Part shown: positions 4,799-34,145 of the stretch, one piece after another
Position numbering within the stretch: position 1 is the stretch's first letter
Layout: each line of letters starts with the position of its first letter
Source: Actinomyces faecalis
GTDB lineage: Bacteria; Actinomycetota; Actinomycetes; Actinomycetales; Actinomycetaceae
Length of the DNA stretch: 64,000 nucleotides
Assembly: GCF_013184985.2 (NCBI RefSeq)
Contig: NZ_CP063418.1
Coordinates: 1,178,001 to 1,242,000 of the forward strand
Reading direction: 5' to 3'
Notes under the pieces: generated by a model
Told to the model about the DNA's origin: nothing
Seen by the model: the letters and a program-made list of their open reading frames with translations, nothing else
The model's database searches: none
Made by a program: the position numbers and the translations under genes

Positions 4799-4911
4799 GT
4801 CCTGTCCAGGCTGCCGGACGGGTGGAGCCTGAGCCGCCGCTACCCTGAAGCGTGCGGCTGGTGGGGGGCAGAACAGGCCGTCAACAGGCGGTCAGGCACG
4901 CACCGCCGTCG

Positions 4912-5799
4912 TTACCGGCTCATTACCTGCTGGCTAGTCTCAGCCTGCTCCTGGCGCTGGCTGGCCTCCCAGGTCGCCAGCAGCGCCATGTTGCTGGCCG
5001 ACGGCGAGCCAGGCTCGGGCGTGTAGGCGGTGAAGGTCAGCCCGTGCTCGGCCTCCAGGTCCATCCCCTGGTAGGCCAGGGTCATCTCGCCGGCTACCGG
5101 ATGGCAGAAGGTCTTGGCGCCCGCACCGTGGTGGCGCACGTCGTGGCGGGCCCAGCGGGTGCGGAACTCGTCGCTGTGCGTGCTCAGCTCGCCGATCAGC
5201 TCGTGCAGCTCGGTGTCACGCGGGGCGCGAGCTGCCTCGGTGCGCAGGATCGCCACTGTGATGTCCGCGATCGAGTCCCAGTCGGGGTAGAAGGCGAAGG
5301 CGCGCGGGTCTAGGAAGGTGTGCCGGGCGATGTTTCCCCGGCCCGGCGCCTCAAGGACCTCAGTGTAGAAGGCGCGCGCCAGGGCGTTGGTGGCCAGCAG
5401 GTCCATGCGCCCGTTGCGCACGAAGGCAGGGCCTGCCGTAAACCCGTCAAGCATCCAGGTCAGCTCAGGCCCTGGCGTCCAGGAGACCACGGAGCGACGG
5501 CGTGGTGGGCGGGCGGCCGGGGCGCCTGCGGCGGCGAGGGCGAAGAGGTGAGAGCGCTCGGCCTCGTCAAGCTCGAGCGCCTTCGCCAGGGAGTCGAGGA
5601 CCTCCGGCGAGGCCCCGGCGATGTGCCCGCGCTCGAGCTTGGTGTAGTACTCCACGCTCACCCCCGCCAGGGTGGCCACCTCGCTACGACGCAGACCGGG
5701 GACGCGACGGGAGGTCCCGGCAGGCAGGCCGACCTGCTCGGGCGTCACCTTTGCCCGACGGGAGACAAGGAATTCACGTACCTCGGCGCGATGGTCCAT
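4912..5799 (-). CDS. XRE-family transcriptional regulator with MmyB-like ligand-binding domain
   Basis: A 295-residue regulator. Residues 1-75 contain a Cro/C1-type helix-turn-helix with the hallmark RRSEVATLAGVSVEYYTKLE. Residues from about 105 on form the MmyB-like ligand-binding domain (motifs ARAFYTEVLEAPGRGNIARH and FLDPRAFAFYPDWD, then MTLAYQGMDLEAE). In actinobacteria this architecture usually represses a nearby reductase or exporter gene in response to small hydrophobic ligands. The closest candidates here are the convergent MFS gene and the TetR gene across the divergent gap. The start is supported by TACTGT six bases before the ATG (leaderless type). Confidence 0.9.
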   Translation of the reverse strand: MDHRAEVREFLVSRRAKVTPEQVGLPAGTSRRVPGLRRSEVATLAGVSVEYYTKLERGHIAGASPEVLDSLAKALELDEAERSHLFALAAAGAPAARPPRRRSVVSWTPGPELTWMLDGFTAGPAFVRNGRMDLLATNALARAFYTEVLEAPGRGNIARHTFLDPRAFAFYPDWDSIADITVAILRTEAARAPRDTELHELIGELSTHSDEFRTRWARHDVRHHGAGAKTFCHPVAGEMTLAYQGMDLEAEHGLTFTAYTPEPGSPSASNMALLATWEASQRQEQAETSQQVMSR

Positions 5800-30750: not shown

Positions 30751-31479
30751 AGTGGTGTGAGGAACGACGGCGACGTCGCGCTCCCGACGGCGCTGGTCAC
30801 CGGGGCCTCCCGCGGCATCGGGGCCGCGGTGGCCGGGTCGCTGAGGCAGGCCGGGTGCCAGGTGGTGGGCTGGTCGCGCAGCGGGACGGCGCCCGACGGC
30901 GTCGAGGGCCGCAGCGTCGACGTCACTGACGCGCGTGCCGTGCGCTGCGGGGCTGCGGACCTGGAACGAGCCGGGGGCGTAGAGGTCCTCGTGTGCGCCG
31001 CCGGGACGGCCGTGGACGCCCTCGCGATGCGTACGAGCGACGAGGCCTGGCAGGCCACCTTGGAGACCAACCTCACCGGGTCCTTCACGGTGGTGCGTGC
31101 GCTCCTGCCCGGCATGCTGCGTCGGCGCCGCGGCCGGATCATCCTGGTCTCCTCCGTCATCGCCGCGCGCGGGGGCACAGGCCTGGCCGCCTACGGCGCC
31201 TCCAAGGGCGGGATCGAGGGACTCACGCGCAGCCTTGCCCGTGAGGTCGCCTCCCGCGGCGTCACGGTCAACGCCGTGGCTCCCGGATTCGTGAGCACCG
31301 AGATGACAGCAGGGATGAGCCGCCCGGCGCGTGAGTCCTACCTCGGCCAGATCCCGATGGGCAGGCTGGGACAGGTTGACGAGGTGGCCGCCGTCGTCCG
31401 CTTCCTGGCCAGTCGGCAGGCCTCCTACGTCACGGGTGCGGTCGTGCCGGTCGACGGCGGGATGGGGATGGGACGATGA
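30748..31479 (+). CDS. fabG: 3-oxoacyl-ACP reductase (SDR family, FabG/MabA-like)
   Basis: A 243-residue short-chain dehydrogenase. TALVTGASRGIGAAVAGSL is the NADP-binding loop; catalytic Ser is in VSSVIAARG, and Tyr and Lys in AAYGASKGG. VNAVAPGFVSTEMT and the C-terminal VVPVDGGMGMGR are typical. It should reduce 3-ketoacyl-ACP in fatty acid elongation. Its stop overlaps the next gene as ATGA, reproducing the mabA-inhA order of mycobacteria. The start fits a leaderless promoter. Confidence 0.92.
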   Translation: MSGVRNDGDVALPTALVTGASRGIGAAVAGSLRQAGCQVVGWSRSGTAPDGVEGRSVDVTDARAVRCGAADLERAGGVEVLVCAAGTAVDALAMRTSDEAWQATLETNLTGSFTVVRALLPGMLRRRRGRIILVSSVIAARGGTGLAAYGASKGGIEGLTRSLAREVASRGVTVNAVAPGFVSTEMTAGMSRPARESYLGQIPMGRLGQVDEVAAVVRFLASRQASYVTGAVVPVDGGMGMGR

Positions 31480-32306
31480 CGGGCCTGCTGGCTGGGCGGA
31501 CGGTGATGGTCACCGGCGTGCTGCGTCCTTCCTCGATCGCCACCGCCGTGGCGCGCGAGGCCGCTGCGCAGGGCGCGTGCCTGGTGCTGAGCGCGCTGCC
31601 GCGAGCGGCACGGGTCACCCAGCAGGTGGCAGCCGGTGCAGGCCTGGGGGAGGTGACAGTGCTGCCGCTGGACCTGACTGACGCCGAGGCCCTGAGCGGC
31701 CTGGAGGCGGAGCTGCGCCGCCTGGACCTGGACAGGCTGGACGGCGTGGTCCACTCAGTGGCCCAGGCGGCTCCCGGGCTGCTGGGGGACCGTCTGAGCC
31801 CAGGGGGCTTGGCGGCAGGTGACCGGGGCGCACAGTGCGGACCGGACGCCGTCGACCTCGCCTCCTGGCAGACCGACCTGGAGCGGGCGCTCACGGTCTC
31901 GGTCGCGTCCCTGCCGGCTCTTGTGGGCGCGGTGAGCCCTCTGCTGGGACCTGGGTCAGCGGTGCTGGCCCTCACCTTCGAGTCAGGCAGGGTGGTTCCC
32001 GGCTACGGCTGGATGGGCCCGCTCAAGGCGGCTCTGGAGGCCAGCGTGAGAGGGCTGGCGGTGGAGTACGGGAACCGCGGGGTGCGCGTCAACGCCCTGT
32101 CCGCCGGCCCGTTGCGTACCACGGCGGGGGGTGCGGTCCCTGGCTTTGACCAGCTGGCTGAGGACTGGGAGAACCGGGCGCCGCTGGGCTGGGACGCTGG
32201 TGATCCACACGGTGTGGCGCGCACGGCCGTGGCGCTGCTCTCCGACTGGCTGCCCGCCACGACCGGTCAGGTGCTGCGCGCCGACGGCGGGGCCAGCCTG
32301 CTCTGA
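31476..32306 (+). CDS. fabI: Enoyl-ACP reductase (FabI/InhA type)
   Basis: A 276-residue enzyme. The glycine motif is replaced by the FabI pattern TGVLRPSSIATAVAREAAAQ, and the catalytic Y-x6-K is in YGWMGPLKAAL. RVNALSAGPLRTTAG follows. It reduces enoyl-ACP with NAD(P)H in fatty acid synthesis and would be the target of triclosan or isoniazid-type drugs. An insert of about 15 residues, LSPGGLAAGDRGAQCGPD, sits near residue 110. It is coupled to fabG by a four-base overlap. The left 65-bp repeat starts 14 bases after the stop. Confidence 0.92.
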   Translation: MTGLLAGRTVMVTGVLRPSSIATAVAREAAAQGACLVLSALPRAARVTQQVAAGAGLGEVTVLPLDLTDAEALSGLEAELRRLDLDRLDGVVHSVAQAAPGLLGDRLSPGGLAAGDRGAQCGPDAVDLASWQTDLERALTVSVASLPALVGAVSPLLGPGSAVLALTFESGRVVPGYGWMGPLKAALEASVRGLAVEYGNRGVRVNALSAGPLRTTAGGAVPGFDQLAEDWENRAPLGWDAGDPHGVARTAVALLSDWLPATTGQVLRADGGASLL

Positions 32307-32320
32307 CCATCCTCCCGAAA

Positions 32321-32385
32321 GGGTACTTTCGCGTTCGAACGTGGACGTCCTCGGCCTTCACTCGAAGGCAAAGCTACCCGTTCGA
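32321..32385. repeat. Left copy of a 65-bp palindromic inverted repeat
   Basis: Begins GGGTACTTTCGCGTTCGAAC and ends AGCTACCCGTTCGA. It matches the complement of 33519-33583 at 64 of 65 positions. The first 58 bases are also an imperfect palindrome (outer GGGTA/TACCC, inner TTCGA/TCGAA) that can fold into a hairpin of about 18 pairs. Confidence 0.9.
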
Positions 32386-32483
32386 CGAGGCTCGGGATCC
32401 ACACCTGCCTCCGTGAGCACCGTTGTCCACAGGGATCGCGAACATCGGTGGCGCCTGCCCTCCCGTACGTTCATGCTCACGGC
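32386..32483. other. Region between left repeat and the AbiEi-like gene
   Basis: About 100 bases hold the presumed promoter. TACGTT at 32466-32471 and TACCCT at 32487-32492 are -10-like, but neither fits a start codon well. An upstream in-frame GTG at 32448 also exists. Confidence 0.4.
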
Positions 32484-33515
32484 ATGTACCCTCAGAGATA
32501 TCCATCAGTGCCGCAGCCGCCGTTCATGGCCTTCACGTCGTCGAGTGCCAGGCGAGACCTGAGCCGTGACCCGACGCTCATACGGGTGGCGCGTGGGTGC
32601 TACACCCCGACTTTGCCGGAGGACACGGCGGTGTGGCAGGCCAAGGAGACCATGACCCTGGCACGTTGCCAGGCAGCATGGCACCTGGTGCCCAGTGCCA
32701 TCGCACTGACTCATGAGGCAGCCGCGGCGGTGCTGGGACTAGCGACCACTCGACACGAGCCGGATATTCGCGTGGCGGTCGCGGGGAACCAGACGCGGGG
32801 CACGCTCATACTTCCCTCGTTCCAGTTCACCCAGGGCAACCGTCAGCTCCCGGGACGTGAGGTAGCTCTGCGTCGCTCCAGCCTCTGTCCGGATCCCGAG
32901 GAGGTGATAGTGGTGCACGGTATGAGCGTGACCTCTCCGTTGCGCACTGCACTGGACTGCGCTTTCGATCTTCCTGTGCGTCAGTCGCTACCGATCATCG
33001 ACTCCGCCCTGAGGGCAGTATGCCGACCAGATCGCCGCTCGCGTCGGAGCACCGCAGTGATCAGCATCGATGAGGCCAGGAGGATGTTGAAGGCGATGTC
33101 TGAGCAGCACCGCGGGCGGCGTGGCGCTCGCCGAGCGCGGACAGCGATCGCCCTGGCAGATCCTCTGGCGGAGTCACCTGGCGAGAGCGTGCTACGGTGG
33201 GCGGTCGCTGCCGCTGGGCTTCCTCCTCCTGTGCTGCAGCGTCCAGTGGTGGTAGAGGGACACGAGTACTTTCTTGATCTGGGACTGGAAGAGGTCCAGC
33301 GCGGCTGGGAGTTTGACGGACTGGCCAAGAGCCAGAGGCCTGAGGACCTGCGCCGCGAGAAGCTACGTGAGATGAGGATCGCACGCACCGGATGGCATAT
33401 CGACCGGTTCGTCTGGGAGGAGATCTTTCAGCCCCGGTCGCTGGTGCGTCGTGTCACGCGGCTCTACCCACAGGCTGTGAGACGAGACGATATCCTGCCT
33501 GAGCTGTGGCGCTGA
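32484..33515 (+). CDS. AbiEi-antitoxin-like protein with a DUF559-type endonuclease fold domain
   Basis: A 343-residue protein. The N-terminal part (LIRVARGCYTPTL and ALTHEAAAAVLGLA) resembles the AbiEi/type IV antitoxin group with a shortened winged helix. The C-terminal 105 residues resemble DUF559, a Vsr-like PD-(D/E)xK fold: Glu in GESVLRWAVAAAG, D265 in YFLDLGLEE and E276-x-D278 in GWEFDGLAKS. The key acids are present, so a nuclease is possible. No partner toxin gene (AbiEii) is beside it. Start candidates are ATG 32484, GTG 32448 and ATG 32526. It is framed by 65-bp inverted repeats at 32321 and 33519. Function unknown; defence or regulation are guesses. Confidence 0.8.
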   Translation: MYPQRYPSVPQPPFMAFTSSSARRDLSRDPTLIRVARGCYTPTLPEDTAVWQAKETMTLARCQAAWHLVPSAIALTHEAAAAVLGLATTRHEPDIRVAVAGNQTRGTLILPSFQFTQGNRQLPGREVALRRSSLCPDPEEVIVVHGMSVTSPLRTALDCAFDLPVRQSLPIIDSALRAVCRPDRRSRRSTAVISIDEARRMLKAMSEQHRGRRGARRARTAIALADPLAESPGESVLRWAVAAAGLPPPVLQRPVVVEGHEYFLDLGLEEVQRGWEFDGLAKSQRPEDLRREKLREMRIARTGWHIDRFVWEEIFQPRSLVRRVTRLYPQAVRRDDILPELWR

Positions 33516-33518
33516 AGC

Positions 33519-33583
33519 TCGAACGGGTACCTTTGCCTTCGAGTGAAGGCCGAGGACGTCCACGTTCGAACGCGAAAGTACCC
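33519..33583. repeat. Right copy of the 65-bp palindromic inverted repeat
   Basis: Starts three bases after the AbiEi-like stop and ends eight bases before the -10 box of the next gene. It is the reverse complement of 32321-32385 with one difference; in this copy the changed base restores a pair, so its own hairpin is the more perfect one. Confidence 0.9.
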
Positions 33584-33590
33584 GCTCGCG

Positions 33591-33605: not shown

Positions 33606-34145
33606 AGTGTGAACGCTACGAGTGCCCACGACACCGTGACGAGCCAGCCGGGCGCCGAGCGCGTCCTCGTGCTTGTGCGCCACTCCAAGGCTGCCCGGGG
33701 CATGGCCGACGTCGAGCGTCCGCTGACCGAGCACGGAGAGCAGATGGCAGCCGACCTGGCCCGGCAGCTGGCCAGCCGCGTCGTCAGCCTCGACCTCCTG
33801 CTCGTCTCCCCGGCGGCCCGTACGCGTCAGACAGCCCGGCCGCTGCGCGACCGGATGCGTCCGCAGGACACTCGTGTCGAGGAGACGCTCTACAGCAGCG
33901 GCCCTGCCGGCGTCCTGGAGCAGCTGACGCTGCTGGACGACGAGGTGCGCAGCGTCGTCGTGGTGGGCCACGAGCCGACCACCTCGGTCCTGGCCCACGA
34001 GCTCGACGACGGCACCAGCAGCCTCGCCCAGCAGATCGAGTTCGGTGTCCCACCGGCCACGGCGCTCGTTCTCACGGTCCCGGTCTCCTGGTCCGAGCTG
34101 GGGACCGGTCGAGCCCAGCTGGCCGAGATCCTCACGCCCCGCTGA
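33603..34145 (+). CDS. SixA-type phosphohistidine phosphatase (histidine phosphatase family)
   Basis: A 180-residue phosphatase of the branch with RHG motif variant LVLVRHSKAA (catalytic His in RHSK rather than RHG), typical of SixA. The second His is in VVVVGHEPTTS. SixA removes phosphate from His residues of phosphorelay or PTS proteins. The start GTG 33603 follows a leaderless promoter that begins eight bases after the palindromic repeat. It converges with serB. The gene family's substrate in actinobacteria is not known. Confidence 0.88.
   Translation: MSVNATSAHDTVTSQPGAERVLVLVRHSKAARGMADVERPLTEHGEQMAADLARQLASRVVSLDLLLVSPAARTRQTARPLRDRMRPQDTRVEETLYSSGPAGVLEQLTLLDDEVRSVVVVGHEPTTSVLAHELDDGTSSLAQQIEFGVPPATALVLTVPVSWSELGTGRAQLAEILTPR

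Follow-up and report, generated by a model that had tools for sequence, protein, structure and literature searches.

A palindrome-boxed AbiEi/DUF559-like gene in Actinomyces faecalis and its boxed relatives across the class: a candidate family of single-gene elements

Repetitive extragenic palindromic (REP) sequences have been tied chiefly to one enzyme, RAYT, and RAYT genes are described as always lying between two inverted REPs, with REPs specific to each gene, an abundance tied to that gene, compensatory changes within REPINs and fast evolution of the rayt genes themselves (PMC2817692; PMC3116915; PMC3733652). In TIRtrons, RAYT-like genes come with long terminal inverted repeats (TIRs) that are sometimes palindromic, differ from gene to gene and in some cases belong to repeat families (PMC3733652). 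Two further systems bear on the present locus: AbiEi, of the AbiE type IV toxin-antitoxin system, binds inverted repeats in its promoter (PMC3985639), and the EDxHD homing endonuclease I-Bth0305I forms a dimer on a target site nearly 60 bp long (PMC3943268). Here, a 64,000-nucleotide stretch of the Actinomyces faecalis genome (the window) was analysed, which at positions 32321-33583 contains a unit in which a single AbiEi/DUF559-like gene is boxed by palindromic repeats. This boxed-gene architecture is real, and it is general in the sets of loci examined. On balance, the unit is probably a single-gene selfish element of a class-wide family, built as repeat, AbiEi/EDxHD-nuclease gene, repeat, and functioning like a REPtron outside the RAYT family by a mechanism that we infer below.

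In the host genome (G000, 2.70 Mb), the segments 32321-32385 and 33519-33583 repeat each other in inverted orientation and differ at a single position, as the initial annotation had proposed (98% identity; 65 nt, 98.5%, E 1.5e-27 within the 4-kb locus), and longer 70-nt arms, 32316-32385 and 33519-33588, pair at 96%; the unit has terminal inverted repeats. Both copies fold better as single strands than dinucleotide shuffles do (z -2.86 and -3.27), which agrees with the hairpins claimed for them, though each palindrome is imperfect rather than perfect. The open reading frame (ORF) map also agrees that exactly one gene is enclosed, with its stop codon (33513-33515) three bases before the right copy. 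The longest ORF starts at GTG 32448 and has 355 amino acids, and the source-database prediction (P0001) has 294; because many close homologues have 343 amino acids, ATG 32484, which fits that length, is the likely start. Pfam matches of the neighbours, to a short-chain dehydrogenase/reductase (SDR) and to His_Phos_1, support the proposed position of the unit between fabI and a phosphatase gene. The features of the locus are:

31476..32306, + strand: fabI-like SDR gene, the left neighbour (enoyl-acyl carrier protein reductase type; Pfam adh_short_C2), next to sixA where G018 and G043 lack the unit
32316..32385, no strand: left palindromic repeat, core 32321-32385, from a family dispersed in G000 (self-comparison, folding, genome matches)
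32423..32431, + strand: DnaA-box-like TTGTCCACA between the left repeat and the gene start (sequence reading, family counts)
32484..33515, + strand: AbiEi/DUF559-like gene, 343 amino acids (ORF, homologue lengths, conserved residues, predicted model)
33519..33588, no strand: right palindromic repeat, core 33519-33583, an inverted copy of the left (self-comparison, folding)
33606..34145, + strand: sixA-like histidine phosphatase gene, the right neighbour (Pfam His_Phos_1)

Matches to the encoded protein are present in 47 of 49 Actinomyces genomes, its own included, with ten in G000. From these, a genus set of 86 distinct loci was drawn, mostly the best-scoring among the matches listed; L090 and L096 were left out of the counts as repeats of L010 and L022, and L087 and L088 are gene-less regions with solo palindromes. 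At least 100 bases on both sides were available at 84 of the 86 loci. Under a strict test, a palindrome upstream, a palindrome downstream and an inverted-match pair were found together at 51 of the 86 loci, and the inverted pair at 59, compared with none of 28 sixA genes and none of 27 displaced positions used as controls. When direct and inverted matches are both counted, a pair flanks the gene at 71/86 loci and 31/35 sites, and the same method gave 1/28 sixA and 0/28 rplL loci. These pairs have a median length of 85 bp and a median identity of 89%, that of L135 being 100% identical across 87 bp, and 56 of the 71 match better as direct and 15 as inverted repeats. In seven of the 15 loci with no pair, the best match starts at query residue 61 or later. 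Decay may explain some of these loci, although a late start is also seen at some loci that have a pair.

Boxing extends beyond the genus. An order set of 26 loci, whose identity to the closest of the family queries is 29-42%, shows a pair at 22, or at 21 of 25 when L214, which is from Actinomyces, is set aside. A class set of 30 loci was collected with a Nocardioides homologue as the query (L279 and L286 belong to the window's own order), and with L293 excluded at a contig edge, pairs were found at 25 of 29 loci, 18 of the 25 as inverted matches only; the same lax method gave 5/56 class control loci. Several class pairs are arrays of short motifs, and short pairs are among them (23 bp in L269, 19 bp in L295). 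Within this set, L279, L280, L281 and L286 carry a flanking motif with the common core TGATCATGCA. In genus g83, several species have ten or eleven family matches per genome (G251, G295, G312 and others).

The repeats are locus-specific, and the only non-orthologous pairs of loci that share them are those with very similar proteins: at a protein score ratio over 0.8, six of eight such pairs share repeats above a score of 25, compared with none of the other 2,360. Here L029 and L032 occupy one site, and L031, L034, L036 and L115 occupy another. Between L032 (G007, 1339-2616) and L034 (G009, 1343-2616), which lie at different sites, the homology is 88.7% over 1,279 columns and is unit-sized, starting in both loci 3-4 bases before the left repeat and stopping exactly at the right repeat end in L032; the direct repeat of L034 extends 15 bases more.

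At some sites, different units are found in different species, often in opposite orientation (the gene names given for sites in relatives are readings of translations). L112 and L121 share flanks that are 88-90% identical and hold units in opposite orientation with proteins 48% identical, and L033 and L119, between rplL and rpoB, likewise combine shared flanks and opposite orientation with proteins at 47%. Between rplI and a MATE-type gene, L024 and L102 encode proteins 55% identical, while L093 and L098 are different units in the same orientation (48%). The proteins of L120 and L123 are 84% identical, with the appearance of one unit inverted. L120 (G023) and L123 (G034) share one site, with flanks about 95% identical and opposite orientation, a possible invertible segment; the inverted repeats are 98% identical within L120 and 94% within L123, and a third copy of the repeat is present in L123 near 4870-4940.

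Among 30 rplL-rpoB loci, nine contain a family gene (G025, where it is cut by the contig end, G042, G046, G007, G006, G003, G009, G023 and G040). Only the rplL hairpin, with no unit palindrome, is present in G001, G044 and G026. G022 has a palindrome that resembles the repeats of the units but no gene, and G000 has a second, weak palindrome, likewise with no gene. The initial annotation had also called for a look at empty fabI-sixA sites, and these were found. Of 30 Actinomyces sixA loci in the 49 genomes searched, only the window's own has a match to the boxed gene in the flanking sequence available. In the nearest genomes, G018 and G043 (fabI 87% and 83%, sixA 80% and 79% identical to G000), the fabI-sixA spacer is about 70 bp long and holds neither gene nor palindrome, and the host sequence GCTCGCGTATCCTGG from this spacer directly follows the right repeat in G000. 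The difference between these three genomes therefore reflects either a gain in G000 or a loss in both G018 and G043.

Solo copies of the repeat, which the same annotation had proposed to look for in the genome and its relatives, are also found. A covariance model was trained on both copies in the window together with four solo copies from G000 and one copy from G043, all of which match it by construction; with at most 94 candidates scored per genome, which makes the large counts lower bounds, it gave two-strand matches numbering 21 in G000, 23 in G018, 12 in G043, at least 72 in G021 and at least 91 in G014, and none in 39 of the 49 genomes. The matches in G000 fall at no fewer than nine distinct places, two of them the window's own, and two matches in G021 and G018 fall on the ends of boxed units (L098 and L010) that the model did not include. 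With up to two mismatches allowed, G014 contains a half-site of the palindrome of L098 50 times in each direction, G021 (A. dentalis) contains it 35 times forward and 34 times in reverse, and G041 once; the other 11 genomes searched contain none, and the reversed control gives 0. A scan of the genome collection with an exact 20-mer found Actinomyces dentalis DSM 19115 only, with 28 stretches. In a best-match test, each of the 11 elements tested from G000, G018, G021 and G024 was closest to the unit of its own genome; the four from G000 had been found by likeness to that unit, which is partly circular, and the other seven had not. In these four genomes, the palindrome that flanks the gene is dispersed in the same genome.

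The two arms of the dispersed palindromes covary. In 31 distinct elements from G014 and G021, 98.9% of 899 cells are paired, five pairs have changed on both sides (26 cells), and the covariation score is reached by 0/500 shuffles. Such figures are inflated by relatedness, and the pattern used to select the elements required both arms. Of the 26 cells, 24 lie in outer columns beyond the selection pattern, and slid versions give 0-4 cells. Among 30 A. dentalis elements, two of which are the unit's own ends, 11 lie between convergent genes, 11 between codirectional and 2 between divergent genes, 2 inside a crude ORF and 4 at edges. Two solo elements of G000 were compared with G043 and G018: one is an unclear intergenic replacement, and the other is an apparent decayed relic in G018.

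Other material is also associated with these palindromes in G014. At L268:2198-3636, a RES/Xre-like toxin-antitoxin-type pair (by ORF reading) lies between two palindrome copies with a duplicated host flank, and the A. dentalis counterpart, L334, has a single solo palindrome. This 1.3-kb boxed stretch was rejected as a family member, since it holds the RES/Xre-like pair. At L267:2064-7726, about 5.6 kb is present beside the palindrome in excess of L318 of A. dentalis, with MFS-type and transposase-like ORFs (by ORF reading) and a second palindrome inside.

The guess that the protein is AbiEi/DUF559-like with a nuclease domain holds in profiles, homologue domains and the predicted model. Its N-terminal part resembles AbiEi in profiles and fold, only weakly so in the window protein itself, and many homologues have precomputed Pfam domains of this kind. 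The predicted model has an EDxHD/Vsr-like nuclease fold with the conserved acidic residues present, and by VIA-align of that model, a match of fold and not of activity, the nearest fold to the nuclease domain appears to be the homing endonuclease I-Bth0305I type; nucleotidyltransferases of the MenT/ANT type also match, at residues of about 50-230. With Foldseek by itself no match reached E 0.001, and the search of the PDB by sequence gave no meaningful match. In Pfam at E up to 1, MTES_1575 alone matches the window protein (E 0.027, under its cut-off), with no Y1/HUH transposase domain, and neither these nor the NCBIfam matches include a recognised transposase. The immediate neighbours, SDR and histidine phosphatase genes, do not include an AbiEii nucleotidyltransferase toxin gene. 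With dN/dS under 0.23 in 16 of 17 chosen pairs, the family is under purifying selection. No phage match was found with P0065, the sole query used there, and three plasmid records match P0065 at 28-38% identity and none the window protein.

Between the upstream repeat and the gene start, the DnaA-box-like motif TTGTCCACA/TTATCCACA, present in the window as TTGTCCACA at 32423-32431, is enriched relative to downstream and control flanks. Within one mismatch it occurs upstream at 32/85 genus, 9/25 order and 20/30 class loci (exactly at 11, 6 and 5), and downstream at 1/85, 1/25 and 0/29, with 0/58 in control flanks. Unless the protein uses it as an operator of its own, the motif is a hint of regulation by replication or of a link to it.

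The unit resembles REPtrons (REP/REPIN plus RAYT) in having one gene between two palindromic repeats that are also dispersed, in the compensatory changes and in repeats that differ between genes. It differs in lacking a Y1/HUH domain, its enzyme being AbiEi-like with an EDxHD/Vsr-like nuclease, and the genus pairs are mostly direct, in contrast to the inverted REPs described for RAYT genes, though the window unit itself is inverted. TIRtrons share the long, sometimes palindromic repeats that vary between genes and in part form repeat families (PMC3733652), but their enzyme family is unrelated to the AbiEi/nuclease protein. The palindromes here (65-85 bp) are near in size to the target of I-Bth0305I (PMC3943268), but no intron or intein was recognised here, the unit brings its own repeats, and an AbiEi-like part stands in place of the phage-type DNA-binding region. 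The likeness to AbiE lies in the N-terminal part (weak in the window protein), and the differences in the missing adjoining AbiEii, the extra nuclease domain and the repeats on both sides. Like miniature inverted-repeat transposable elements (MITEs) and insertion sequences, the family combines short gene-less relatives with a longer gene-bearing element, but with no known transposase and no target duplication seen.

Of the options in the initial annotation, a selfish gene together with its target palindrome is best supported. The N-terminal AbiEi-like part would recognise the arms of its own palindrome, and the C-terminal Vsr/I-Bth0305I-like domain would cleave or nick it, probably with a protein dimer sitting across the dyad; we infer a dimer that reads both arms and cuts because AbiEi binds inverted repeats and I-Bth0305I dimerises on its long target. 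Cutting would drive copying of the whole unit, through repair or replication, into further intergenic positions, such as the one behind fabI in the window and those behind rplL and rplI in related genomes; gene-less palindromes, as REPIN-like derivatives, would be spread and kept up in trans. Direct pairs could come from copying into palindromes or from conversion between them. More tentatively, and with real doubt, we suggest an Actinomycetes-wide transposable family whose AbiEi/EDxHD (Vsr-type) protein, neither HUH nor DDE, spreads both units and gene-less palindromes through a dimer on its own palindrome.

Several observations weigh against the selfish-element interpretation. The direct orientation of 56 of the 71 genus pairs is unlike a classical TIR transposon. 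Fifteen of the 86 genus loci, two of them at contig ends, have no detectable pair; the same gene without repeats had been named beforehand as grounds for rejection, and these loci go part of the way without refuting the idea. No target-site duplication was seen at fabI-sixA or rplL-rpoB, where flanks are too diverged, and in the rplL comparison the unit ends are blurred by turnover; the empty fabI-sixA site also lacks the palindrome. Unit-sized homology between sites is one case, since all eight similar-protein pairs are L029/L032 against L031/L034/L036/L115, and the two pairs with L115 show no clear repeat sharing. Over all non-orthologous loci, repeats and proteins covary weakly (rho 0.10, reached in 1/300 permutations), and among 98 within-genome protein pairs there are no recent duplicates, the best being 60% identical. 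In the best-match test, 0/9 elements from G014, G043, G030, G034, G036 and G022 fit their own unit: the G014 elements match the G021 unit, two G043 elements match the G000 and G018 units and the rest have no good match. G030, G034, G036, G022 and G043 do carry units, but with other repeats, and none of the roughly 50 palindromes of G014 boxes its three family regions. For further pair types in the G014/G021 elements, the measure is not above shuffles. Wide occurrence of the repeat after unrelated genes, in random orientation, had also been named as a ground for rejection, and solo copies in G000 partly bear this out; they do not refute the selfish-element interpretation, because they are expected if the element makes REP-like derivatives.

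The main rival, which we hold unlikely, is a regulator with operators on both sides. The gene would then be a domesticated AbiEi-type regulator or defence gene, and its repeats would act as operators, insulators or bidirectional terminators. The protein would bind them to control itself and its neighbours, the dispersed palindromes would serve as further binding sites or terminators, and nothing would be mobile at present. The promoter binding described for AbiEi (PMC3985639) would fit, as would the mostly intergenic position of the A. dentalis elements (11 convergent and 11 codirectional of 30), the purifying selection and the DnaA-box-like motif upstream of many members, but an operator accounts for the upstream repeat and not for a matching downstream copy. 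Nor does a fixed regulator account well for units that vary between species in site, orientation and identity and are missing from the fabI-sixA and rplL-rpoB sites of other species.

A conventional mobile element or MITE, whose ends are moved in trans by an unrelated transposase with the AbiEi/DUF559 gene as a passenger, is improbable. Dispersed MITE-like copies do exist, and in G014 palindrome copies also bracket the RES/Xre-like pair with a duplicated host flank; yet the boxed genes of the genus, order and class sets belong to a single family while the repeats change by locus, where a passenger would be expected to vary. This argument comes with no systematic search for other boxed gene families. 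The same constancy makes the passive cassette of the initial annotation less likely.

Strict homing, in which the nuclease cuts a solo palindrome and break repair copies repeat, gene and repeat, so that every unit sits at a pre-existing palindrome, is equally hard to credit. The homing-like mechanism suggested at the outset finds some support in the predicted fold, nearest to a homing endonuclease, in the nearly 60-bp target of I-Bth0305I (PMC3943268), which is near the palindrome size, and in the solo palindrome of G022 at a unit's place, a copy that could just as well have been left by a deletion between direct repeats. Against it, fabI-sixA in G018 and G043 and rplL-rpoB in G001, G044 and G026 have neither unit nor palindrome, and homing into a pre-existing palindrome is unsupported at fabI-sixA because the empty site there lacks one. 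Chance or artefact is ruled out by the sixA, rplL, displaced-position and class controls, gene-end repeats unrelated to the gene by pairs that match within a locus and differ between loci, and the third early option, two unrelated repeat copies, does not fit the boxing counts in genus, order and class.

Judged by titles and abstract openings, with preprints and most subscription papers outside the search, no description of AbiEi/DUF559 genes boxed by palindromes was found among the papers listed, and no text combining DUF559 with AbiEi or DUF559 with 'repetitive extragenic palindromic'; this large actinobacterial family of single-gene elements is apparently undescribed. Even if the mobility reading fails, a class-wide gene family boxed by its own repeats still needs explanation. 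An unrelated nuclease family here carries the same signs as RAYT, namely paired boxing, gene-specific palindromes and dispersed hairpins with covarying arms, and if the selfish-element interpretation is true, REP biology would gain a second, independent case, and a common orphan gene family of actinobacteria would gain a candidate function. Should the tentative transposable family hold, many orphan AbiEi antitoxin or DUF559 annotations in these bacteria would belong to it.
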